Origin: a virus
Virus record (IMG/VR): IMGVR_UViG_3300019759_000014
Coordinates: 1 to 31,020 of that record
Strand: one strand, 5' to 3'
Length of the DNA stretch: 31,020 nt
In this document: piece by piece, positions 212 through 29,690 of the stretch
How positions within the stretch are numbered: the first letter of the stretch is position 1
Layout: every line of letters begins with the position of its first letter
Notes under the pieces: model-generated
What the model was told of the DNA's origin: nothing
Seen by the model: the letters and a program-made list of their open reading frames with translations, nothing else
Database searches by the model: none
Made by a program: the position numbers and the translations under genes

Positions 212-416
212 GCTATTGTTTTTTGTTGTATCTATACTTTATTATCTTTACTCTTAGCTCTATTATTATGTCTAGTAGTAGTATTTGTGTTAGTAGGTTG
301 TCCATGATTATATTGTATTATTTTCTTAAGTTTGGTCGAAGAAGTACGGCATTGTTATTCTTAGTTCTATCTAGTTTTAAATGATTACCTATAGATTCTA
401 AAATTTGTAATCTATC

Positions 417-458
417 TTGATGTAGGTCAAGGTAATTACTTTTATATGTTGTTATAAT
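417..458 (+). promoter_or_regulatory. activator-type promoter with TTGAT-N4-GTCAA operator (copy 1)
   Basis: The palindrome TTGATGTAGGTCAA (417-430, flanked by C and G) lies 22 bases upstream of a TATAAT box (453-458), which has an extended -10 TG at 450-451. With -10 at -12 to -7, the palindrome is centred at -41.5. The bases where a -35 box would sit (430-435, aggtaa) do not match TTGACA. The same layout recurs at 1165, 4910 and 28478 (minus). An AAGGAG ribosome site and the ATG at 483 follow closely. Likely bound by a CRP/FNR-like or other dyad-binding activator (inference). Confidence 0.75.
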
Positions 459-482
459 TGTGTAAATTTAAGGAGATTTATT

Positions 483-773
483 ATGGCTAGGAAACTATTA
501 TTATATCATGGTCACACGTTTGTTAAAGGTCAACAAGTTTTTTGTTGTATTGCATCTACTACGCAAAAGAAAGTATTAGATATTACTGGTATTTCTAGAA
601 ATGAATTGAAAGACTATTGGAATACTGACTCAGAAGAGGATGCAAGAGATTGGGAAGGAAGAGATATTGCTTTAAACAACCCTGATGTTCTGTATGTAAT
701 TAACACAGTTAGAACTTGTCTTAATTTTAGCCCATTCATTACTGAAAAAGAATTTATTAAAAAATATAGTTAG
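483..773 (+). CDS. hypothetical protein, 96 aa
   Basis: I do not recognise this family. The start is well fixed: AAGGAG lies 7 bases before ATG 483 and the operator-type promoter at 417-458 lies directly upstream, so it is the first gene of its transcript. The protein is soluble, with no membrane segment or signal peptide, and is mixed-charge with an acidic middle (EEDARDWEGRD). The next gene starts 15 bases after the stop with its own AAGGA, so the two are probably co-transcribed. The position among small genes near ssb and dut suggests an early or host-takeover role (inference only). Confidence 0.7.
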   Translation: MARKLLLYHGHTFVKGQQVFCCIASTTQKKVLDITGISRNELKDYWNTDSEEDARDWEGRDIALNNPDVLYVINTVRTCLNFSPFITEKEFIKKYS

Positions 774-788
774 ATTAAGGATTTAAAG

Positions 789-1157
789 ATGGAAATAATA
801 TTAGGTAAAAAATACATAGACAGAATGGGAAACATATCTGTTGTTAAATTGGCGTTTGATTTTTATGGGAAAGAAATGGACTTTTTATTCATTGCTGAAC
901 ATATTGACAATGTTAAATACCCTACTAAATCTACTGTTGGTATCAAAGAATATCAAATTTTTAGAGATACAGGTATGATTCGTGATGATAAAAAAACTGT
1001 TATTGATCTCTACAAAAGATTCACATTAAGGATGCAAGCAAGATTGTTTTTTGATAGACTTATTTATAAGCTTATCCCTAAAGGTATTTCTAATGGGTTT
1101 GAAGATGATTTGTTTGATGTTGATATAGACAATAGAATTAAAAGGTTTTTGAAATAA
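789..1157 (+). CDS. hypothetical protein, 122 aa
   Basis: Unrecognised soluble protein. ATG 789 is preceded by TTAAGGA with good spacing, and it follows the 96-aa gene by 15 bases, so it is probably the second gene of the transcript from 417-458. The C-terminal half is basic (KRFTLRMQARLFFDRL) and it ends with an acidic patch then a lysine/arginine tail. No catalytic motif, Cys cluster or membrane segment is visible. A copy of the TTGAT-N4-GTCAA operator starts 8 bases after its stop, so a new transcript begins right after it. Confidence 0.7.
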   Translation: MEIILGKKYIDRMGNISVVKLAFDFYGKEMDFLFIAEHIDNVKYPTKSTVGIKEYQIFRDTGMIRDDKKTVIDLYKRFTLRMQARLFFDRLIYKLIPKGISNGFEDDLFDVDIDNRIKRFLK

Positions 1158-1164
1158 TAGTATC

Positions 1165-1206
1165 TTGATTCATGTCAAGTGTTTTTGTTTTTTCTTAGTG
1201 TATAAT
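1165..1206 (+). promoter_or_regulatory. activator-type promoter with TTGAT-N4-GTCAA operator (copy 2)
   Basis: TTGATTCATGTCAA (1165-1178) is followed after exactly 22 bases by TATAAT (1201-1206). The -35 slot (1178-1183, agtgtt) is not a sigma70 -35 box. The T-rich stretch after the palindrome could act as a weak terminator for the gene ending at 1157, but the stem has only five base pairs. The leader (AATTTAAGGAG before ATG 1230) closely resembles those before 483, 2751 and 4982. Confidence 0.75.
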
Positions 1207-1229
1207 TTTATAAATTTAAGGAGTTTATT

Positions 1230-1515
1230 ATGGAAATCTTTGAGGTTGGTAGCTTAATTACCTATAATTCAAGATGGTCTAATCCAATCTTGACTGTGAT
1301 AAGAGAGACTAAAACGATGTTTATTTGTGATAGAGGTGTTCGTATCTATAAGAAAAATAACTGTATTGTTGGCGATTCTTATACTAAGGCTAGGCTCGTC
1401 ACTCAAAATGACTTAGACTTACAAAAAAAAAGCTACTCTTGCTAGAGAATTGCGAGAATTTAATTATGATAGTCTTAGCTTAGACTTATTAATTAAGATA
1501 AAGGAAATGTTATGA
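1230..1515 (+). CDS. hypothetical protein split by an A9 run; about 94 aa after a +1 (or -2) shift
   Basis: ATG 1230 with a strong AAGGAG opens a frame that stops at 1443-1445 (71 aa). At 1423-1431 there are nine A residues. Leaving out one A continues in another frame as ATLARELREFNYDSLSLD and so on, ending at TGA 1513-1515, which overlaps the next ATG (1512) in the ATGA style of the neighbours. The shifted product would have about 94 residues. The clean coding character and exact junction suggest that this is the true C-terminus, reached by polymerase slippage on A9, or that one A is an assembly error or recent mutation. Function is unknown; the N-terminal half resembles a small beta-rich domain. 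Confidence 0.6.
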
Positions 1516-1712
1516 AAATTGAAGTTGAAGTTGTTGAGAAACCTAAAAATTCTCTGTTTTTACATGAAGAAGTTGCTACTTTTGAAGGTGGTAGAGTTAT
1601 ATCTGTTGTTGGAAATCGTTCTATTGTTGTAGAATCTGATAAGCATGATGTAAAGTTTGAATTTTCTGTTCAGAATCTTCTTGAAGCTCTAGATAAAAAA
1701 GTGAGTTTATAA
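1512..1712 (+). CDS. hypothetical protein, 66 aa
   Basis: Unrecognised 66-aa protein. It starts at ATG 1512 behind AAAGGAAA and overlaps the shifted end of the previous gene by four bases (ATGA); its own stop overlaps the next start (TAATG at 1710-1714). These couplings argue that all are translated together. The alternating hydrophobic and polar pattern (IEVEVVEK, GGRVISVVGNRSIVVES) suggests a small beta-barrel or SH3-like fold. No motif gives a function. Confidence 0.65.
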   Translation: MKIEVEVVEKPKNSLFLHEEVATFEGGRVISVVGNRSIVVESDKHDVKFEFSVQNLLEALDKKVSL

Positions 1713-2299
1713 TGCATGATGAAATTGATGCTTTAGCTATTAAGCATACTCCTTACCTCGATGATATTTATTCTCGCACCATTCCTTTTTTTGATGGTGG
1801 TATCACTTGTGCTGTTGCTCACACTCCAGAAGGTATTTCTACTTTTATTATTAATGATATTAGTTCTGCATCTGCTATTCAGTTATTTATCAATACAGAT
1901 GGTGAAGGCAATTCACATGTTTCTTTTGAGCATGATGGATGGTCTAATGTTCCTAGTGCTAATGACATTATTAATCTTGAACGTCAAATTGAACTACTGG
2001 AAGATTATGATAATTGGGATTCAGAATATCGTGAATCTACCATGTATCAAAAAGCTCATATTAAGAATTTTGCTTTTGATATTACTAGAAAAACTGGACT
2101 TGCTATTCGTAGTGTTGAAAGTGGAATCGAAAGCCTACTATCTAGTAGTGCAACTGTTACTCCATCTATCCCTGAAGAACTTGTCTTTGAAATTAAAAAC
2201 ATGCATGAAGATATTGAAAAGCTTGCTTTTCTTGAAGACAAACATCCTCACTACAGAGACTTAGAGTTTGGACACAAGAAAAAGAAAAGGTTTACTTAA
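1712..2299 (+). CDS. hypothetical protein, 195 aa
   Basis: Unrecognised protein. Its start overlaps the previous stop and its stop overlaps the start of the next gene at 2299, so it is inside a tightly coupled operon. The N-terminal 70 residues look globular and beta-rich, residues about 85-110 are acidic and helical (LERQIELLEDYDNWDSEY), a serine/threonine-rich linker lies near 145, and the C-terminus is a helix ending in a lysine-rich tail (HKKKKRFT) that could contact nucleic acid. No enzyme motif is visible. The long open frame at 1761-2264 in another phase is a shadow of this gene. Confidence 0.7.
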   Translation: MHDEIDALAIKHTPYLDDIYSRTIPFFDGGITCAVAHTPEGISTFIINDISSASAIQLFINTDGEGNSHVSFEHDGWSNVPSANDIINLERQIELLEDYDNWDSEYRESTMYQKAHIKNFAFDITRKTGLAIRSVESGIESLLSSSATVTPSIPEELVFEIKNMHEDIEKLAFLEDKHPHYRDLEFGHKKKKRFT

Positions 2300-2619
2300 T
2301 GGAAATTATACTATTAGATAGGTATGACTTGAAAAAGTACATGCCTGACAAAGAGGCTCATTCTCTTGCTACTACGATTATAAAAGACATTAATGCCATA
2401 AAGACAAAGGCAATGTATGTTAACATGGAAAGAGGTAGTCAGAAGTTTGAAACTAGAGTCCAAGTCAAGCAGTTTAACATAGATACAGTTATACTTCATT
2501 TTCAAAATAAAATAGAATCTCAAGATAAAAGATTTATGAAGTCTTGGAAAAGAAACTTAAGAATCGTCAAAAAAATCAAGGATGATAAAATTGCCATTCT
2601 AGAAGACGATTCAAGATGA
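2299..2619 (+). CDS. hypothetical basic protein, 106 aa
   Basis: Unrecognised, strongly basic protein (many Lys/Arg, especially in the C-terminal third, for example KRFMKSWKRNLRIVKKIK) with an acidic last few residues. The start overlaps the preceding stop by one base and the stop overlaps the next ATG (ATGA at 2616-2619). The charge suggests nucleic-acid binding, which is inference only. No Cys cluster or membrane segment is seen. Confidence 0.65.
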   Translation: MEIILLDRYDLKKYMPDKEAHSLATTIIKDINAIKTKAMYVNMERGSQKFETRVQVKQFNIDTVILHFQNKIESQDKRFMKSWKRNLRIVKKIKDDKIAILEDDSR

Positions 2620-2714
2620 GTGCTTTAGATTTTAAAGTTATTTATGCTAAAGATAAGCTTGATTTGCTTATTATTAAAGAGCAATATGCTCAAATTAAAC
2701 AAAGTGAGAAGTGA
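2616..2714 (+). CDS. small hypothetical protein, 32 aa
   Basis: ATG 2616 overlaps the previous stop codon (ATGA), as elsewhere in this operon, and opens 32 codons to TGA 2712-2714. The peptide is lysine-rich and helical (SALDFKVIYAKDKLDLLIIK). The extended -10 box of the next promoter begins three bases after its stop, so it closes the 1230-2714 transcription unit. Translation is inferred from coupling only. Confidence 0.5.
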   Translation: MSALDFKVIYAKDKLDLLIIKEQYAQIKQSEK

Positions 2715-2716
2715 TG

Positions 2717-2725
2717 TGCTATAAT
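2717..2725 (+). promoter_or_regulatory. extended -10 promoter, without the palindromic operator
   Basis: TGCTATAAT (2717-2725) is a perfect extended -10 element 25 bases before ATG 2751. Bases 2684-2697, where the other promoters carry TTGAT-N4-GTCAA, do not match, and the -35 slot (aaacaa) is poor. This promoter would drive the fibre-like gene and ssb independently of the putative activator. Confidence 0.6.
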
Positions 2726-2750
2726 GGTACATTAATTTTAAGGAGTTTTT

Positions 2751-3020
2751 ATGGCAGATGTTGTTGAAATCATAGAGGTTGTTAAAGATACATGGCTTCA
2801 TGTTCCTCTTGACCCTGATTCCGATGGATATACTGAGATTACAATTGAGAAGATTGAAGTAGAAATGGATGTTATGTGGACTTCTGTAGAACCTGCTGAT
2901 CCTCTCGTCATCACTCCTTTTATCCCTTATCAGTCAAGATTTGATTATGATATTTATTTAAAACTTCATAAAGAGTCCATGTTTGAAAAACGTAGATACT
3001 CTATCACGAGGTTACTATAA
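2751..3020 (+). CDS. hypothetical protein, 89 aa, paired with a fibre-like protein
   Basis: Unrecognised acidic protein. ATG 2751 follows AAGGAG; the stop overlaps the ATG of the 431-aa virion-like protein at 3020 by one base. The sequence is beta-strand rich (EITIEKIEVEMDVMW) with prolines, like small virion or fibre-associated proteins. Its tight coupling with the next gene suggests a partner or chaperone for that product (inference). Confidence 0.6.
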   Translation: MADVVEIIEVVKDTWLHVPLDPDSDGYTEITIEKIEVEMDVMWTSVEPADPLVITPFIPYQSRFDYDIYLKLHKESMFEKRRYSITRLL

Positions 3021-4315
3021 TGATTAATGGTTTTGACTTTAGAAAATACATTCCTGTACGCTTTAAAAAAGGAGAAAACCAAGTTGAGATGACTGGTGTA
3101 GGTGGTGTTCAAAATTTTGTCTTTCCTTTTGGAGAGCAACTAAGCGGTAAAAAGCATGATGATGTCTCTGTTCAATTTCAACACAACTACTTAGATGAAC
3201 AGTTCGATGTAAAAACTTCTGTCGTTGGTGCTGGTGCAAGCGTTGATGCTTCTGATTCTCTCTGTATTGCTTCTACTTCTGCTGAAGGAGAAATGGCATA
3301 TATCAGTTCCATAGACCCCATTAGATACAGAGCAGGTCATAGTGGTTTTATAGACCTCACTCTTAGTGCAGACTTAACTAACGGTGGTTTTATTCATGGT
3401 GGTGGTTTCGATCCATCTATGCAAAATGGATTCTGTATTGAAATTGGCTCAAATGGTATGACTTTTGGATTTTTCAAAGATGGTGTTAAAAAAGGTAGTG
3501 ACTTCAATGATGGCTTTGATTCAGTAGATACCACTGGCATAAATCTTTCCAACCAAAACATCTACAGAATTGTTTTTGGTTATCTTGGTGTAAAAAATCC
3601 TATTTTATACACTACTCAAAATGGTTTATGGTATCAGCTTCACGAGGTTCAAACCGAAGGAAAGAAAGATTCCACCCATGTTTCTACACCAGTCTTTCCT
3701 ATTACTGTAATGGCTCATGATGGAGCAGTAGTTAAGTCTGGCTCATGGAATGGTGGTGTGATTGGAAATGGTTCTTCTGTTGGAAATAGAGGTTTTCATT
3801 TTCCCATAGAACTTCTCACAAGTGGTTCAGCTCCTCTACAAGGCACTGCTGTTATGAATTCTACTGATGTTAAAACCATTGTTGCTTTTAGAGCCAAAGA
3901 CGTTTATCAAGGTAAAGTTAATAGCGTTAAGGCTCGACTTATAGGGTATAAGTTTGAAGTCTATATCCCATCTGGTAATGTTTTCGGTGAAGTTGAATTT
4001 CAGCTTATCAGTGTTAATTCTTTTACAGGAACTTTTAACCCTCAAGACGTTGATACTGTCAGCTCTATGATGGAATATGACCATATAAATGGTGTTGGTT
4101 CTGGCATAGTTCCTACTGTTGGAAAAGTTATAGCTCAAGAACTCGTGACTTATGTTGGTTCTTCCAAAGGTGGTGCTGTTGTTGATGCTTCACTTGATGC
4201 AGAGAAAATCGGTGCATTTGCTTATGCTGGAAATATTTTTGCTGTTATTGCAAAAGATTCTGGAGGCAACAATATTACAGCCAAAGCTCTTCTTGTTTGG
4301 GAAGAGTTATTTTAA
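3020..4315 (+). CDS. putative virion surface/fibre-like protein, 431 aa
   Basis: The protein is rich in Gly, Ser, Thr and Asn with many short predicted beta strands. It contains the stretches RYRAGHSGFI (about residues 101-110) and NIYRIVFGYLGV (about 180-191), resembling a recurring virion-protein layout that I know from phage structural and fibre proteins; this is recall, not a search. There is no signal peptide, coiled coil or catalytic motif. Its location is odd: it is read on the strand opposite the whole morphogenesis module, directly before ssb. It could be a receptor-binding fibre, head fibre or decoration protein, or possibly an abundant non-structural protein. Confidence 0.5.
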   Translation: MINGFDFRKYIPVRFKKGENQVEMTGVGGVQNFVFPFGEQLSGKKHDDVSVQFQHNYLDEQFDVKTSVVGAGASVDASDSLCIASTSAEGEMAYISSIDPIRYRAGHSGFIDLTLSADLTNGGFIHGGGFDPSMQNGFCIEIGSNGMTFGFFKDGVKKGSDFNDGFDSVDTTGINLSNQNIYRIVFGYLGVKNPILYTTQNGLWYQLHEVQTEGKKDSTHVSTPVFPITVMAHDGAVVKSGSWNGGVIGNGSSVGNRGFHFPIELLTSGSAPLQGTAVMNSTDVKTIVAFRAKDVYQGKVNSVKARLIGYKFEVYIPSGNVFGEVEFQLISVNSFTGTFNPQDVDTVSSMMEYDHINGVGSGIVPTVGKVIAQELVTYVGSSKGGAVVDASLDAEKIGAFAYAGNIFAVIAKDSGGNNITAKALLVWEELF

Positions 4316-4334
4316 AAAAAAACAAGGAAAAAAT

Positions 4335-4871
4335 ATGTACAATAAAGTCATATTAGTTGGAAACTTAACTCGCGACATCGAACTTAGATACTCTCAAAGC
4401 GGTATGGGCATAGCAAATACTGCTCTTGCAACAAGCCGTAAATTCACTAGTAATGGTGAAAAGAAAGAAGAAGTATGTTTTGTAGATATCACATTCTTCG
4501 CAAGAAGTGCAGAGATAGCAAACCAATACCTTCGTAAAGGAAGTAAAATTCTTGTAGAAGGAAGACTTAACTTTGACCAATGGGTAGATCAAAGTGGACA
4601 GAAACGCTCAAAGCACTCGGTTGTAGTTGAAACTATGCAAATGCTTGATAGCAAAGGCGATAATCAAGGTGGTGGTGCGAACAATGCTCCTACTCAAGGT
4701 GGACAGTCTTATCAACAACCTCAGTATCAAAACACTCAGCAAGTTCCTACTGAATATCAAACAGTTAACGCTGGTCAAAAAAACAATCAATCTCAGGCTC
4801 AAAGTCGTGCTATGCCTAGTCCTGATTCTGTTCCAGTGATTGATATAGACGAAGATGAAATTCCGTTCTAG
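4335..4871 (+). CDS. ssb: single-stranded DNA-binding protein
   Basis: This 178-aa protein opens with MYNKVILVGNLTRDIELRY, the classic bacterial/phage SSB N-terminus; the OB fold spans about residues 1-105. A Gln/Asn-rich flexible linker follows (about 110-160), and it ends in the acidic tip DIDEDEIPF, the motif by which SSB recruits partner proteins. It coats ssDNA during phage replication and recombination. ATG 4335 is chosen because ACAAGGAAAA precedes it and the SSB fold begins there; the same frame is open to 4152, but that part lies over the C-terminus of the upstream gene. A hairpin terminator follows the stop. Confidence 0.97.
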   Translation: MYNKVILVGNLTRDIELRYSQSGMGIANTALATSRKFTSNGEKKEEVCFVDITFFARSAEIANQYLRKGSKILVEGRLNFDQWVDQSGQKRSKHSVVVETMQMLDSKGDNQGGGANNAPTQGGQSYQQPQYQNTQQVPTEYQTVNAGQKNNQSQAQSRAMPSPDSVPVIDIDEDEIPF

Positions 4872-4905
4872 CACTAACTAAAAAAGTTTTTTAAATTTAT
4901 GTTGA

Positions 4906-4933
4906 AGCCTTGATTTATGTCAAGGCTTTTTTT
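4906..4933 (+). terminator. rho-independent terminator after ssb, overlapping an operator
   Basis: AGCCTTGA (4906-4913), a 6-base loop, then TCAAGGCT (4920-4927) form a perfect 8-bp stem, followed by a run of T to 4933. It lies about 35 bases after the ssb stop. Its inner stem is the TTGAT-N4-GTCAA operator of the next promoter, so one palindrome appears to do two jobs. Confidence 0.8.
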
Positions 4934-4951
4934 CGTTTTATGTATTATAAT
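4910..4951 (+). promoter_or_regulatory. activator-type promoter with TTGAT-N4-GTCAA operator (copy 3)
   Basis: TTGATTTATGTCAA (4910-4923) sits 22 bases upstream of TATAAT (4946-4951). The -35 slot (4923-4928, aggctt) is not a sigma70 box. A leader with AAGGAG leads to ATG 4982. This is the third + strand copy with identical spacing. Confidence 0.75.
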
Positions 4952-4981: not shown

Positions 4982-5557
4982 ATGGTTGTTTCAAGAGAAA
5001 TATTAGAACTTGGTTCTATGTATGTTGATGTTAAAAATGTTGAGGCTAGATTTAATTATCTTTATGTTGGTGATTCTAGTCTTATTTCTACAAATTTAAA
5101 AGCTGTTTCTAAAGTTACGCACTATTGTGTAGTTAAAGAACCGTTTTATATTCGTAAAAGTGTTGTTGATTTAGCTCTAAAGCAAACTAAAGCTAAGACC
5201 TTTGAGCTATCCTCTGGATGCATTAAGTGTTTAGATGTAGATAATGTTGAGATTGTTACGATTAGTCGCCCTAATGATACTCTTGGTGCGTTTCCTGATA
5301 TACATTCTAATCTTCCTGAAAAGTTTGCGAAGAAAGTTAAAATTGTTGACTCTGATTATATCTCTGGTATTCTTGGAGTAAATGGTGTTATGGTTGATAA
5401 AAAGTTGTTACCTAAAAAGTTGACTTCTGATTTTCAAGGATATGTTGGCATCAACTCTGCTAAAGAGTCTATTGCTATTGTAAATAAAAGTAAAACTGTT
5501 GAACTGTATATTATGCCTACGTTTAACAATTACTTAATTGATATGGAGAATTTGTAA
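4982..5557 (+). CDS. hypothetical protein, 191 aa (weak resemblance to a clamp-like domain)
   Basis: First gene behind the operator promoter at 4910-4951, with AAGGAG before ATG 4982. I do not recognise the family with confidence. The N-terminal half (residues about 20-80) alternates strands and short turns in a pattern that recalls one domain of a DNA sliding clamp (YLYVGDSSLISTNLKAVSKV), and the position between ssb and dut would suit a replication accessory protein. The length, however, covers at most about half of a normal beta clamp. Treat the clamp idea as speculation. The stop overlaps the next ATG by one base. Confidence 0.65.
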   Translation: MVVSREILELGSMYVDVKNVEARFNYLYVGDSSLISTNLKAVSKVTHYCVVKEPFYIRKSVVDLALKQTKAKTFELSSGCIKCLDVDNVEIVTISRPNDTLGAFPDIHSNLPEKFAKKVKIVDSDYISGILGVNGVMVDKKLLPKKLTSDFQGYVGINSAKESIAIVNKSKTVELYIMPTFNNYLIDMENL

Positions 5558-15900: not shown

Positions 15901-17946
15901 TTTTTCATCTACTTCACTAATCCCTGCTCTGTTATTAGCTATTACTCTTTGCAGTTCAGCTATTGCTATCGTATCCTGCTTCTCTCTTTTTTTCTCGTCT
16001 GACAGCTTCTTTTGATTTTTAGTTAAATCATCAGACCATAGCTTCTTTTTCTCCATTAAAGCTACAATTTTATCTTCTTCTTTAGCAATAAATTTAGTAA
16101 TATCCTCTTGCACTTTTCTATCTATAGCTAACTCAGCTATCAACTTAGCCTGCTCTTTTGCTATTTCTAATGTCTTTTCAGATTCAACTCTTTCTTCATT
16201 TTTAGTTCTAGCTATATCCTGAAGTGCTTTTAAATGATTTTCCACTACTGTTAATTTATCTTTAGTTGTCTTTAAATCTTTTACATCTTTTGCTTGATTT
16301 TCATCAGACTCAAAGAAACTATCATCTGCTATATCTTTCTGCAGGTTGTATATTACACTTGTTAATTCATTATATTCACTCTCTAGTAGCTTTTTACCTT
16401 TTCTTATTGTATCTATTGGTTGTTGACTTAATGTTTCTACTGAAGTGTTTAATACTTTCGAAAGCTCAAGCAATCTCTTGTTTTCATCACTAAAATATTC
16501 TGCTATTGAATACCCTGCTGTCCCAACGATTACTGCTCCTGCTATATATGGGTTTCTCATTGCTGATGCTGTTACCGCATCTATTGCTTTTGCTAGTGCA
16601 AAATATGAAGCTATTGCTGTTGCTGGTATAGCTACGTTTTCAGCAATTCCAACTATATCTTTTACAACTTCATATATATCATCAAAGTTTTCTACAATAT
16701 CATCTGAATTTTCTGTTAGGCTTTGTGCTACCTCATAAAAAGTTTCTGTTATATCTTGGAACATTCCAGACTTTTCTACCATATCGCCCATAGTTCTTTG
16801 CCAAGCACCCTGCATCTGCAAGAACCCTTTTTCATAAGACTTTGTTGTTGCTAGAATGTCAAATGGCTCAAACTTTAGATCAAACAGTTCTTTAAGTCCG
16901 TTACTTCTTTGTCTTGCTTCTTTTATTGCTTTATTTGCTTCTGTTGGCGACCCAAAAATCATAGTAGAGATTATCGAGTCTGTTGACACATTTCCTGTTA
17001 GTGCACTTCTTATCTCTTCTTTTACTCTATCCATAGGTTGACCAATTGCACCAGCTATGTTTGAGAATCTTTGTGCTAACTGAACTGTGTTTTTATTTAT
17101 CTCTTCAACTGAACCACCAAAAGCATCTCCCATTGCTAATGTTTGACCTGTTGCTTGCTGATAGATTTCTGTTAATTGAGCAAATGTTGCAGGAGTCTTA
17201 AGAGCTTCTTCTCTTAGCTCTTGCATAATATCTTTCGCTATTGCTTGACCTGCAATAAATTTTTCCATTGGAGTTATAGAGTTTCCTAATGAATCCACCA
17301 TTCTTGTATTTGCTGATGTTAAAGCTGAGATACCAAATGTATTTGACTCAACCATCTTGTTTATCTGGATTCCAGTTCCTAGCGTTGAATCCCATGCTCT
17401 TTGTGTTGCATACACAACCCCAGCTATTGTACCAGCCCATCTTAGATATCTAATTGTTTGATTTGCTAAATTTTCAGTTGACTTACTTTGTTTATCTATT
17501 ACTGCGTTATTTTTAAGTTGTGCAGAAGTATTTGCTTGCAATGCCTTTGTTTCTTTTTTTAATGTATTTTCTTGCTTCTCTAATATTTGTGCTTCTTGTT
17601 TTTTAGCAATTATTGTTTTTTTTGTATTTGCAATATCTATCTTTTGCAGTGCTATATTATCTTTTTGCTCTTGCTGAAGTTTCTGTAGTATTTCAATGTA
17701 TTGTTGTTGTGTTTTTTTCTCTTCGCCTGTTAGAGTTTTTAACTTTTTCTTCTCTTCTCTTAGTATTGCAGTCTGCTTAATTAATTCTTTTCTATCTGCT
17801 GTGAGTCTTTTTTCAGCCTTATTGTATTCTTGTGTTACTTTTCCTATCTCTGAAAAAGTTTCTTTGTAGTATTTTGAAACCGATTTTAGTTTTGCTTCTA
17901 ACTCTGTGTCATCAATTTTTAAGACTGTTTTTGCTGAAGTTGCCAT
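12949..17946 (-). CDS. tape measure protein, 1665 aa
   Basis: Largest gene of the window, downstream of the G/GT chaperones, as expected for a siphovirus tape measure. Residues 1-150 are a charged coiled coil; a hydrophobic stretch near 442-482 and another near 945-985 (VLAMVALLAGIAGAVGVGG) could insert into the host membrane at DNA ejection; long helices fill the rest. Around 1509-1540 the segment LNKIFQENLGRDVGSEGGAD resembles DUF4214. Near 1562-1602 it carries the common tape-measure C-terminal motif GGVVNRPT, then FGEAGTEAFVPLPDGR. At roughly 0.15 nm per residue the tail would be near 250 nm (inference). A promoter-like sequence precedes it. Confidence 0.95.
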   Translation of the reverse strand: MATSAKTVLKIDDTELEAKLKSVSKYYKETFSEIGKVTQEYNKAEKRLTADRKELIKQTAILREEKKKLKTLTGEEKKTQQQYIEILQKLQQEQKDNIALQKIDIANTKKTIIAKKQEAQILEKQENTLKKETKALQANTSAQLKNNAVIDKQSKSTENLANQTIRYLRWAGTIAGVVYATQRAWDSTLGTGIQINKMVESNTFGISALTSANTRMVDSLGNSITPMEKFIAGQAIAKDIMQELREEALKTPATFAQLTEIYQQATGQTLAMGDAFGGSVEEINKNTVQLAQRFSNIAGAIGQPMDRVKEEIRSALTGNVSTDSIISTMIFGSPTEANKAIKEARQRSNGLKELFDLKFEPFDILATTKSYEKGFLQMQGAWQRTMGDMVEKSGMFQDITETFYEVAQSLTENSDDIVENFDDIYEVVKDIVGIAENVAIPATAIASYFALAKAIDAVTASAMRNPYIAGAVIVGTAGYSIAEYFSDENKRLLELSKVLNTSVETLSQQPIDTIRKGKKLLESEYNELTSVIYNLQKDIADDSFFESDENQAKDVKDLKTTKDKLTVVENHLKALQDIARTKNEERVESEKTLEIAKEQAKLIAELAIDRKVQEDITKFIAKEEDKIVALMEKKKLWSDDLTKNQKKLSDEKKREKQDTIAIAELQRVIANNRAGISEVDEKIARIKLDRLQKEEERRNNIWVAEQALLGVEVKRSDLLNLKIQAEAENYALTTAGKEEEESRLKILKLAFEYQQAINNEKKKDVKEDDRLDEDWARIQSEHYLSMVESQISLSESASNWGSNLEGVAGTIADLSSSMAKFDLDRLKSTEAQAKLDIKYAKIDEKIWEDEKKAQTLAYRYIKEQDKIKKKSFENEMDGYAGVAGASANFFNQESDNYKTLHTLEMALQFAKHTSMLMDDINNAKKVSASTTQIGLNVAEGATKQATEGDPYTATARVLAMVALLAGIAGAVGVGGSSGGGSVPSAISSDTIAESEFNTLMIEMANEPILERLDRMVDLLEIIGLEGTAGRTRLAQSATQYEMDTRLLAEEIIRSTQTLTLGAGYGTATQENIRFAWENQFSKANEAVGDSLFDLGGAFEKVTFDANVFRNNTLASLSAIYNQGLLPTLSDWTQGYKDGVRDDIELGQWAVAQGIENINKLQEVTHEYIVSLSDVVDTMSDAKDTFKELYDDLTGTTTYEDRDLAKAKKDVEKLLSDTGLDFATYLEKQISIISKVEKEFGTDISTLFLSQDPRDLQDQADALSSLNKAMDNAFGEGVQSALNFIDSIELYAESILESSNAIMNVAEAQSIIQDDIVNQWEEADDRLSSLSETFSSLGQSIEDTISTLLGGSDALDAQDRLIEDFWNKREELDTLLLKDTNLTESEEARLKVLTGNVTKLSTEIQKASIGDNTNITNELVSELGILSSELADDENRLSMEDKVQELTDTAIEYLGESSPIVEWLKTLTGVVGEIGFNQYAEQKEIDQAYARVETANQVAEATAEQAYGSKELNKIFQENLGRDVGSEGGADFWQNIIESADTKEQGIALATAGIKQSEEFLMKNATPFANGGVVNRPTVSLFGEAGTEAFVPLPDGRTIPVTMNNKYPSKTSLESYASRTNDMEVKKLLEQVIQKLDTISVSSSKTAGFLDDSQNGNRPLLVKQQA

Positions 17947-17976
17947 TTTACTCTCACTTTAAGAAGTTTATAGCTT

Positions 17977-18005
17977 ATTATATCTAAAATAAAAGATTGT
18001 TTTAA
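17977..18005 (-). promoter_or_regulatory. promoter before the tape measure gene
   Basis: On the minus strand TTAAAA (18005-18000) is followed after 17 bases by TATAAT (17982-17977), in the context TTTTAGATATAAT, which also occurs before the G gene. It lies in the 79-bp gap between the T frame and ATG 17946. The -35 match is weak (four of six). Confidence 0.5.
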
Positions 18006-18025
18006 TTAATGCAGTTGGGCAGAAG

Positions 18026-19005
18026 CTATTTCCTAGCTTCATATTCCCTTTGTTGTTTTTTTAGCATCTCTGTTTCATATTCTGTAACCATAAATGCGTA
18101 TTTTGATAGATTTATCCCATACATATTTTTTGCAGATTCAGCAAGCTTTTGTCTATCAAGTCCTGTAAAGCTACCTTCCATTCCCACATTTGTAGTGAGA
18201 TTCTCATTTTCTCTTAAAAACCCAAATATCTTAAATGCTAATCTTGTTGAATCTGGTGGGAATCTTGCTTCCAATCTCCCCTTATGCTCATCTTCATAGA
18301 GCTCATCGTCAGATATTCTATGTTCTCTAATATACTCTCGCCACTCTATTTTATCCTCATTGAACCACCACTCTACTAGTTTTGAAAACGCTTTCCCTGA
18401 GCGTGATTTCTATATCCTCTCACTGTAGAGAATGTCATGTTTGCAACTAGCATTTTTTCCCAATCTGTTAGGTTTTCTTGATTTAGACCTACTATATCAA
18501 ACACCATATTATTTAGCTCTTCTGATGCTTTTGTGTATTTTTTTATTGCTTTTTCTTTTTCTTCTGCTTCCACTTTAGAAATCGACATCATAAGCTTTTC
18601 TGTCTTACTGAGTTTTTTCAATAAGTCTTCAACTGCAAAAGCATCTGGTAAGTCACAATCTTTTGTGTTTTCTGTGGACTTATAATTTCCATTTTCATCT
18701 TTATATGAAGTTACTTTTTCTATAACAGCATGAATAAAATCTCCGATCTCTTCAGCTTTAAACTCTTTAACTTCTTCTCTCGTTATTAAGTCTTCTATAA
18801 TTGCAATAAGGCCATTTTCATCTTTGTCTTTAATCTTTTTATATCTATCTTTTTCAAGAATAGGCGTATTTCCTATTGCCTCAAGTTTTATTTCAAGCTC
18901 TGGTGCTAAAACTACTTTTGAATCAAGCTTGTCTAGCGTTTCCACTATTACATCTTCATTCCCTTTTGCTATATGCTCATCTATTCTCTGTCTTACTGTT
19001 TTCAT
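18026..19005 (-). CDS. GT tail assembly chaperone, made by -1 frameshift (about 326 aa)
   Basis: From the slippery site 18397-18391 (GGGAAAG on the coding strand) the -1 frame is open without a stop to 18026, adding 121 residues (AFSKLVEWWFNEDKIEW and so on, ending KKQQREYEARK) to the first 205 residues of the G product. The downstream frame has no good start of its own where it begins, so frameshifting is the natural way to make it. In lambda and many other siphoviruses, G and GT bind the tape measure and recruit the tail tube protein; neither is in the finished virion. Location between tail tube and tape measure fits exactly. Confidence 0.88.
18376..19005 (-). CDS. tail assembly chaperone G, 209 aa
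   Basis: The zero-frame product of the chaperone gene: an acidic/basic helical protein of 209 residues starting at ATG 19005 behind ACAAGGAATAC. It stops at TAG 18378-18376, 13 bases after the slippery site. In the lambda model G is made in excess over GT and coats the tape measure before tube assembly. No conserved motif identifies it alone; the call rests on position, size and the frameshift. A TTTACA-N17-TATAAT promoter precedes it. Confidence 0.85.
   Translation of the reverse strand: MKTVRQRIDEHIAKGNEDVIVETLDKLDSKVVLAPELEIKLEAIGNTPILEKDRYKKIKDKDENGLIAIIEDLITREEVKEFKAEEIGDFIHAVIEKVTSYKDENGNYKSTENTKDCDLPDAFAVEDLLKKLSKTEKLMMSISKVEAEEKEKAIKKYTKASEELNNMVFDIVGLNQENLTDWEKMLVANMTFSTVRGYRNHAQGKRFQN
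18391..18397 (-). promoter_or_regulatory. programmed -1 ribosomal frameshift slippery site GGGAAAG
   Basis: On the coding strand the heptamer reads G GGA AAG in the zero frame, five codons before the G stop, and would re-pair as GGG AAA after a -1 slip. It is identical to the slippery heptamer of lambda G/GT. The downstream -1 frame is open for 121 codons. Confidence 0.88.
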
Positions 19006-28088: not shown

Positions 28089-28457
28089 CTACTTCATCTT
28101 TCTATATTCAAGTGTGTCATCATCCCACTCATTCAGCTTCATAAAGATATATTTTATCTCTTTTGTTGTTGCCAGTCTATACCATCTTTCACTATTATTA
28201 AGCTTATCAATTAGCTCATCTGCTGTTCTCCATTTTTCAATAGGTGGACTCACATCTCTTATTGCTCTTAAACAATACAATCTGCTTCTACTTCCTTTCT
28301 CTCCAACCACCACAGAATTTAATACCATAGTTCTCTTTTCTACACTAAACCCTAAGTTTGATGCTGAAAATGTTGTAAAGTCATCAGATAGTTCAACTAT
28401 AGGTCTATCTATAATAGCATCTAAGTCACTCTCACTAAAAATATTTTTTGTCTTCAT
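28089..28457 (-). CDS. hypothetical protein, 122 aa, controlled by an operator promoter
   Basis: Unrecognised protein, mixed alpha/beta, with an N-terminal acidic part and GEKGSRSRLYCLRAIRD near the middle. ATG 28457 is preceded by ACAAGGAGAAAGT and, about 20 bases earlier, by the -10 box of the minus-strand copy of the TTGAC-N4-ATCAA operator promoter. It therefore shares the predicted control of the three + strand operons. This makes the RusA/YopX and morphogenesis genes behind it possible regulon members. Confidence 0.65.
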   Translation of the reverse strand: MKTKNIFSESDLDAIIDRPIVELSDDFTTFSASNLGFSVEKRTMVLNSVVVGEKGSRSRLYCLRAIRDVSPPIEKWRTADELIDKLNNSERWYRLATTKEIKYIFMKLNEWDDDTLEYRKMK

Positions 28458-28477: not shown

Positions 28478-28519
28478 AGTATACTATTTATCTTTCTTTA
28501 TTCTCTTGACTTAAATCAA
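28478..28519 (-). promoter_or_regulatory. activator-type promoter with the palindromic operator (minus-strand copy 4)
   Basis: The plus strand reads TTGACTTAAATCAA (28506-28519); on the minus strand this is TTGATTTAAGTCAA, followed after 22 bases by TATACT (28483-28478). The -35 slot reads agagaa and is no sigma70 box. It overlaps the stop codon of the 70-aa gene at 28516. The spacing is identical to the three + strand promoters. Confidence 0.7.
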
Positions 28520-28728
28520 GCCTTTATAACTCCTGTACCAGTAGAAGAAAACTCCCACTCTAAAGTCCAGTGTTCTACGTTAATTTCTTTTGCATCTTTT
28601 AGCTTGTCTAGTAACTTCTTGGATTTCTCTTCATCTAAAGGCTTTCCATAAACATAACACCCTTTTTCAGTAAGAGCAACAACTTCTCCTTCTGATCCAA
28701 TATGTGAAGATATTAGTTTAGCTGACAC
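28516..28728 (-). CDS. hypothetical protein, 70 aa
   Basis: Unrecognised. It opens with SAKLISSHIGSEGEVVALTEKG and ends WEFSSTGTGVIKA, with a Lys/Asp/Glu-rich helix in between (DEEKSKKLLDKLKDAKEI). The start lies inside the end of the preceding gene (overlap 16 bases) and is preceded by TAAAGGAGATAA, a strong ribosome site. The stop lies in the operator of the next promoter. Confidence 0.65.
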   Translation of the reverse strand: MSAKLISSHIGSEGEVVALTEKGCYVYGKPLDEEKSKKLLDKLKDAKEINVEHWTLEWEFSSTGTGVIKA

Positions 28729-29066
28729 ATTATCTCCTTTATATTCTTAATATCATCAAAGTGATATACCATCATACCTTTTTGTCTAGCAACTTCTATC
28801 TCTTGTCTCATACCACTTGAAACACCAAGCCCAGCATAAACTAAAAGTAGATCACAAACATCTAAAAGTTTAATTGCACTCTGAGTTCCAACAAGTCTCT
28901 CGTTTATATCATCATCATTTAAAAACTGAGGATAATACAAATGAGCAACTATGACCTCATGTCCAGCAAGTACAACTTCCCTAGAAATCTCTTTAGTAGC
29001 TTTCAGTTGCTCATCAAACTGCTCTTGTGTTTTTGCACTGTATCTTGTACATATATAAACTATCAT
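28713..29066 (-). CDS. DUF4406/DUF7768-like protein (nucleoside deoxyribosyltransferase-like fold), 117 aa
   Basis: The pattern VYICTRYSAK at the N-terminus, AGHEVIVAHLYYPQFLNDDDINERLVG in the middle, then LLDVCDLLLVYAG and GVSSGMRQEIEVARQKG is characteristic of the phage DUF4406/DUF7768 group, whose Rossmann-like fold relates to nucleoside 2-deoxyribosyltransferases. The role in phages is unknown; base or nucleotide binding is plausible. ATG 29066 overlaps the preceding stop by one base. Confidence 0.75.
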   Translation of the reverse strand: MIVYICTRYSAKTQEQFDEQLKATKEISREVVLAGHEVIVAHLYYPQFLNDDDINERLVGTQSAIKLLDVCDLLLVYAGLGVSSGMRQEIEVARQKGMMVYHFDDIKNIKEIMCQLN

Positions 29067-29623
29067 TACGCTTCCTCTATCCTCTTCTCAGCTATCTCAA
29101 AATATTTTTCATCCAATTCCTCTAAAATTATCTGTTGTTTTAGTAAGCCTGAACAATAATAACTGCTCGAAAATGTAGTTTTCTTTTTTGTTTGACCATT
29201 TTGCTCAAAGTGTATTCTTTTGTCAAACATCAAAAGTTGCATTTCTCTATTTGCTTCTTTGAAAACCCATTTAGAATACTTATCATTTAGCCATGCGTTT
29301 GTCATTAGTAATGCAAAAGGCTTTCCGAAACTCAAAACTCTTTCAAAAAAATGCCTCTTGTTTTGAAATGGTGGATTTGAAACAATAATATCCCATTCTG
29401 TCGGTTCAAATTCAAAAAAATCTTTACCATCTTCTATATGTGAATATATTACAGCATTTCCATTTGCTCTTATCTGCTTTACAAATTCGCTATGTTCTTT
29501 ATCAAAAGGACACCAAACAATGGCATCTTTTGGAATATGCTTAATTATAGGTTGCACCCCATATGATGGAGTATAACTTTCATCGCCACCTACCTTATTG
29601 TATAAAACTTTTTGACTATCCAT
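29066..29623 (-). CDS. DNA adenine methyltransferase-like protein, chimeric C-terminus, 185 aa
   Basis: ATG 29623 is preferred over the GTG three codons upstream because AAAGGTG lies six bases before it. The core has PKDAIVWCPFDKEHSEFVK, then WDIIVSNPPFQNK, in which NPPF is the catalytic motif of amino-MTases, then FSSSYYCSGLLKQQIIL. This fits a small phage adenine methylase of the EcoRI/Dam-like type. The last 20 residues, ELDEKYFEIAEKRIEEA, instead match the C-terminus of the other, beta-class MTase type. The 24-aa ORF just upstream matches the N-terminus of that same class. The protein may therefore be an insertion into, or replacement within, an older methylase gene. Confidence 0.65.
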   Translation of the reverse strand: MDSQKVLYNKVGGDESYTPSYGVQPIIKHIPKDAIVWCPFDKEHSEFVKQIRANGNAVIYSHIEDGKDFFEFEPTEWDIIVSNPPFQNKRHFFERVLSFGKPFALLMTNAWLNDKYSKWVFKEANREMQLLMFDKRIHFEQNGQTKKKTTFSSSYYCSGLLKQQIILEELDEKYFEIAEKRIEEA

Positions 29624-29690
29624 CTGTAACACCTTTAGCTATAAGTTCATCCATAACCTCTAAACAGTCGCCTTTATATAAATCTATCAT
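29616..29690 (-). pseudogene. remnant 5' end of a beta-class DNA methyltransferase gene, 24 codons
   Basis: ATG 29690, with AAAGGATTG before it, encodes MIDLYKGDCLEVMDELIAK and then stops at 29618-29616, inside the start of the next gene. The sequence is the typical opening of beta-class DNA MTases (LyxGDcLevmkeLp), which normally continues for 200 or more residues. Here only this piece remains, overlapping the next gene's ATG. It may still be translated and could couple translation to the downstream methylase. Confidence 0.55.

Follow-up and report, generated by a model that had tools for sequence, protein, structure and literature searches.

Which factor recognizes a palindrome that stands at one fixed distance ahead of several promoters in this stretch of viral DNA (31,020 nucleotides, hereafter the window), and what would it tell the phage? 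To our knowledge, very little is known about gene control in phages of chemolithoautotrophic Campylobacterota. The first Sulfurimonas phage was described in 2024 (PMC11290706).

A repeated promoter element in the window

The first-pass annotation had described three plus-strand palindromes, each 22 bases before a TATAAT. Direct reading and a motif scan reproduced all three exactly and added a fourth copy (site 4), which was absent from that list. The relevant features are as follows.

416-431, plus strand: site 1, CTTGATGTAGGTCAAG, with core TTGATGTAGGTCAA at 417-430 and dyad centre at 423.5 (direct reading, motif scan)
453-458, plus strand: -10 of promoter 1, TATAAT; an inferred transcription start site (TSS) near 465 would place the dyad at -41.5
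483-773, plus strand: first open reading frame (ORF) downstream of site 1; its 96-aa product matches no family
1164-1179, plus strand: site 2, CTTGATTCATGTCAAG, with core TTGATTCATGTCAA at 1165-1178 (direct reading, motif scan)
1201-1206, plus strand: -10 of promoter 2, TATAAT (direct reading)
1230-1445, plus strand: first ORF downstream of site 2; its 71-aa product matches no family
4335-4871, plus strand: SSB gene, the basis of the host assignment
4904-4929, plus strand: hairpin of an intrinsic terminator following the SSB gene, with site 3 in the stem
4909-4924, plus strand: site 3, CTTGATTTATGTCAAG, with core TTGATTTATGTCAA at 4910-4923 (direct reading, motif scan)
4946-4951, plus strand: -10 of promoter 3, TATAAT (direct reading)
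4982-5557, plus strand: first ORF downstream of site 3; its 191-aa product matches no family convincingly
28505-28520, minus strand: site 4, CTTGATTTAAGTCAAG, with core TTGATTTAAGTCAA at 28519-28506
28478-28483, minus strand: -10 of promoter 4, TATACT, followed by a ribosome-binding site (RBS) and an ATG at 28457
28089-28457, minus strand: first ORF downstream of site 4; its 122-aa product matches no family

Sites 1-3 are exact copies of CTTGATnnnnGTCAAG, each flanked by C and G and separated by 22 bases from TATAAT, and all four exact occurrences of TTGATnnnnGTCAA in the window carry TATAMT at +22. The four sites are dyads of the TTGAY-N4-RTCAA type. The geometry, with TSSs expected near 465, 1213, 4958 and, on the minus strand, 28471, centres the dyad at -41.5 in all four and likewise in the relatives described below. 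The first genes behind the sites are mostly small ORFs with no assigned function; downstream of the first ORF of site 4, same-strand genes continue through YopX-like, RusA and portal genes. This gene content lends no support to the early timing of the operons that the annotation had proposed. Genes for a nucleoside 2-deoxyribosyltransferase and a DNA methyltransferase lie upstream of site 4, at 28713-29632.

Such spacing had been claimed to be hard to obtain by chance, and randomization bore this out. In 400 dinucleotide-preserving shuffles the dyad alone occurred 0.16 times on average (maximum 2), and the dyad with a -10 at +22 occurred in none. Dyads with two mismatches allowed were at chance level in the window (61 observed versus 54.6 expected), and the signal is therefore confined to exact sites with fixed spacing. 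The shuffles, combined with the spacing histograms for phages and host family given below, rule out a chance origin of the arrangement. The annotation had also held that the -35 slot contains no sigma70 box. In 38 element promoters, taken from the window and from phages related to it, the best fit to TTGACA with a spacer of 16-18 bp averaged 2.53 of 6 positions, versus 2.56 at random positions, in agreement with that statement. The extended -10 proposed for a neighbouring promoter was found as well, with TGn preceding TATAAT at 2720-2725. Epsilonproteobacterial sigma-70 promoters are known to lack a -35 box (PMC3847290).

Palindromes of this kind might instead be transcription terminators that precede promoters by coincidence. 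Site 3 forms a strong intrinsic terminator, a hairpin of -15.3 kcal/mol (z = -5.75) with a T run behind it, and site 1 folds also (z = -3.5). However, sites 2 and 4 are weak folders (z = -2.0 and -1.5), with no T-tract at site 4, and for these two sites a terminator-only function was rejected on that ground. Nor does a terminator account for why the -10 stands 22 bp away at dozens of loci, or why host respiratory promoters have the identical distance, and we regard this reading as highly improbable. The inverted repeat at 4904-4929 apparently doubles as the terminator of the SSB gene and a predicted activator site.

Recurrence in other phages and in the inferred host family

The arrangement recurs widely outside the window. 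A scan of IMG/VR for CTTGATnnnnGTCAAG followed by TATAAT after a gap of 14-28 bases returned 17 matches outside the window at a gap of 22 versus 0-9 at other gaps, where many matches were duplicate records, and nearly all of the same-gap matches lead straight into an RBS and start codon. Whole related records hold up to eight TTGATnnnnGTCAA sites (eight in 52.8 kb), and reversed-pattern controls gave zero in all of these records except one. The histogram of -10 offsets in related phage records has 32 TAnnnT boxes at +22, and no other offset has more than 3 (range 0-3); these records were partly chosen for one such site, but many of the counted sites played no part in the selection. Aligned, the phage element reads C-TTGAT-D-Y-R-D-GTCAA-G-G, followed by a T-rich stretch and TATAMT. 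In another type of phage, of 48 kb (G314; L167, L168), TTGATCTARGTCAATT precedes TATAGT by 22 bp, which may reflect a related system in a different host.

Two or more phage groups that are structurally unrelated to each other carry the element. Group A (the window, G303, G304, G307, G308 and L183) has portal, terminase, head-protease or tape-measure genes in common, and group B (G302, G305, G309, G310 and probably G311) has different virion genes, of contractile type as judged from sequence. SSB and lysis-region genes are common to both groups, but no shared helix-turn-helix (HTH) regulator was found. Because unrelated groups carry the element with no such regulator in common, it is most simply explained by a host factor that they share. 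A phage-encoded CRP was rejected, the CRP-type HTH (PF13545) being absent from all 16 phage records checked. Neither the nearest named phages (Thiohalocapsa MD03 and Nitratiruptor NrS-4) nor Sulfurimonas prophage SNW-1 has the element; it is therefore not merely carried along with those virion genes. The phage collection held no DNA-level relative of the window, and a head-protease sequence search for relatives gave no result.

The SSB gene provides the main clue to the host. Over its length, the product shares 76-81% identity with SSBs from a single Campylobacterota clade, to which Sulfurimonas indica belongs, versus 48-50% for the best phage SSBs, those of Nitratiruptor phages, and the host is thus probably a Sulfurimonas-type bacterium. 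No close prophage was found: of 228 Sulfurimonadaceae genomes, one has a terminase above threshold (34% identity), on an 8-kb contig lacking the element.

We scanned 200 Sulfurimonadaceae genomes for TTGATnnnnRTCAA with TATAMT 15-29 bases on, and among the matches listed the gap was 22 in 99 of 150 (hand tally). The genes behind sites with a gap of 21-22 in 17 genomes of the clade include those for cytochromes c and porins, along with a globin gene and one for a CRP/FNR protein (named from sequence), and 16 of these 17 genomes encode proteins with the CRP-type HTH. The extracted CRP/FNR proteins carry an ETLSR recognition helix, which places the E-x-x-S-R type in the inferred host family; they contain 0-3 Cys, lack an N-terminal cluster and FNR's four-cysteine set, and have PDB relatives that include DNR (3dkw), FNR and CRP. 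The same gap was enriched when 84,980 genomes were scanned for CTTGATnTAnGTCAAG, with sites preceding nrfH, hemN, truncated haemoglobin and CRP/FNR genes (named from sequence). In Secundilactobacillus (L081, L087, L091, L097, L104), the same dyad and spacing occur ahead of a CRP/FNR gene, an arrangement that suggests autoregulation.

Phage and host sites differ in one respect. The asymmetric form TTGAT..GTCAA with C/G flanks accounts for 28 of 34 unique phage sites versus 10 of 33 host sites (Fisher p = 2e-5); far more often in phage sites, TTGAT is the half away from the -10 and GTCAA the half next to it. This preference could mean that a special regulator is involved. A phage-coded dyad-binding activator, of the Mor/C, Ogr or another family, driving a phage-internal cascade would be in keeping with the more uniform phage form and with an element density of four per 31 kb, far above that of host genomes (the strict C..G-flanked pattern with TATAAT occurs in 3 of 298 Campylobacterota genomes). 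Yet structurally unrelated groups share the element with no HTH-type regulator in common, the dyad has the CRP/FNR 5-4-5 layout at a spacing that the host itself uses, and neither PF13545 in the 16 records nor any regulator, including a Mor/C or Ogr gene, among the scanned window ORFs was detected, the records being fragments. We consider such an activator improbable.

A host respiratory regulator as the predicted activator

A 5-4-5 dyad is the textbook CRP/FNR site, and E. coli FNR senses O2 through a four-cysteine Fe-S cluster. The class II FNR box of E. coli resembles the phage sites in placing this dyad at -41.5 in place of a -35 box, but its consensus, TTGATnnnnATCAA, differs from the phage element, the second half being GTCAA in all four window sites, and the host regulators examined lack the cluster that E. 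coli FNR carries. A strict O2-sensing FNR was rejected, since neither the GTCAA half-site nor the missing four cysteines fit it. The DNR box of denitrifiers, with consensus CTTGATnnnnATCAAG (PMC1274295), is one base off the phage element, but its second half-site is ATCAA and it belongs to different bacteria and to non-phage genes.

A published site in Campylobacterota offers a further comparison. Nss sites read TTGA-N6-TCAA and, at napA, norE and nosB, start 48-49 nt upstream of the TSS (PMC11539149), which centres a 14-bp dyad at about -41.5; the window sites agree with this consensus in both sequence and geometry. The regulator of the Nss regulon (Wolinella NssA/B/C; Nitrosophilus nap/nor/nos) is a Crp/Fnr protein with a Dnr-type DNA-binding domain (PMC11539149), and nitrate, NO and N2O are the signals to which NssA, NssB and NssC respond (PMC6682613). 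In contrast to the Nss regulon, which drives the bacterium's own respiratory genes, the element here heads phage transcription units, and its phage form is narrower and asymmetric relative to the Nss site. A precedent for a host CRP-family protein setting phage promoter activity is phage T1, in which host cAMP-CRP represses pir, dam and recE (PMC6737242), whereas here activation is predicted from where the sites stand, and each phage has several such promoters. A limited literature search found no description of a phage regulon of this kind; the type of element was already known, and its use by phages on such a scale is new as far as we have found.

The element, its fixed spacing and recurrence, the missing -35 box, the host promoter architecture and regulators, and the lack of a CRP-type gene in the phage records were established directly. 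On this footing we consider it likely that the palindromes are class II sites for a host CRP/FNR protein, most probably of the Nss/DNR type, that acts as an activator. A respiration-linked host protein of this family had been proposed in the first-pass annotation, and the proposal gained support from the fixed spacing in other phages and in the host family, the FNR/DNR-type helices and the published Campylobacterota site. The follow-up that it had called for, a survey of related phages and a listing of CRP/FNR proteins on both sides, turned up the 22-bp arrangement in other phages, and CRP-type genes in the host clade but in none of the 16 phage records checked; no relative was seen that kept the promoters and had lost the palindrome or its spacing.

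In the mechanism we envisage, the regulator would be an Nss/DNR-type controller of nitrogen-oxide respiration in a Sulfurimonas-like campylobacterote, a member of a phylum whose sigma-70 promoters have a -10 but no -35 box. Its dimer would bind the dyad at -41.5, contact sigma-70 RNA polymerase and turn on a promoter that has a good -10 and no -35. Through it, the host's respiratory state would control at least four transcription units of the phage, and the cassette would be common to related as well as unrelated phages, apparently of the same host group. The window phage appears to read that state with no activator of its own. Nitrate, NO or N2O is a likelier signal than oxygen because FNR's four cysteines are absent from the host regulators examined. 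Host species, regulator paralogue, signal and activation are the parts that we infer. Against this explanation weigh the assignment of the host mainly from SSB, a gene that phages can acquire; the fragmentary contigs, in which a non-CRP phage regulator could be hidden; the lack of the element in SNW-1 and the nearest named phages; and the stronger bias of phage sites to the asymmetric form. If the explanation is true, such a multi-promoter regulon, answering to a regulator of nitrogen-oxide or redox type, would link viral expression to nitrogen and sulfur chemistry in the habitat, and the promoter architecture could be used as a host marker for uncultured phages.

Divergent structural promoters beside the element

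A second motif, AATTTAGaTATAAT (also AATTAAGnTATAAT), recurs before tape-measure, head-protease and other genes in L151, L153, L154, L158 and L160 (for example at L160:7943, minus strand). It is a candidate promoter for structural genes and frequently lies on the strand opposite the palindrome, at a distance of 16-19 bp. The host-regulator explanation can be extended on this basis to a switch, in which the bound factor activates the forward unit and blocks a divergent structural promoter whose -10 lies 16-19 bp away, with the dyad at about -36. Seventeen TTGACnnnnATCAA readings in related records carry a -10 at 16-19 bp, often with AATTTAGaTATAAT ahead of tape-measure or head-protease genes, which speaks for such a switch. 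In the window, however, only site 1 has a reverse -10 (TAGAAT), from which no gene is read, and the tape-measure locus keeps its structural promoter with no palindrome. Because this promoter stands alone, compact insertion of a cassette would explain the closeness too, and we view the switch as unlikely. A broader scenario strikes us as conceivable though somewhat doubtful: unrelated phages would have independently spread the cassette (up to eight per record), the bound protein would activate accessory units and, where the cassette adjoins a structural promoter, block virion genes, and electron-acceptor state would bias infection.

At 17930-18030 of the window, TTTAGATATAAT is kept before the tape-measure gene with neither palindrome nor forward cassette, unlike the homologous locus of G308, the single one compared; judged from this comparison, the pair represents a natural gain or loss of the cassette. 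Palindromes at L183:9027, L150:17345 and L156:1419 are flanked on either side by a -10 at a distance of exactly 22 bp, and one dimer could thus drive divergent promoters.
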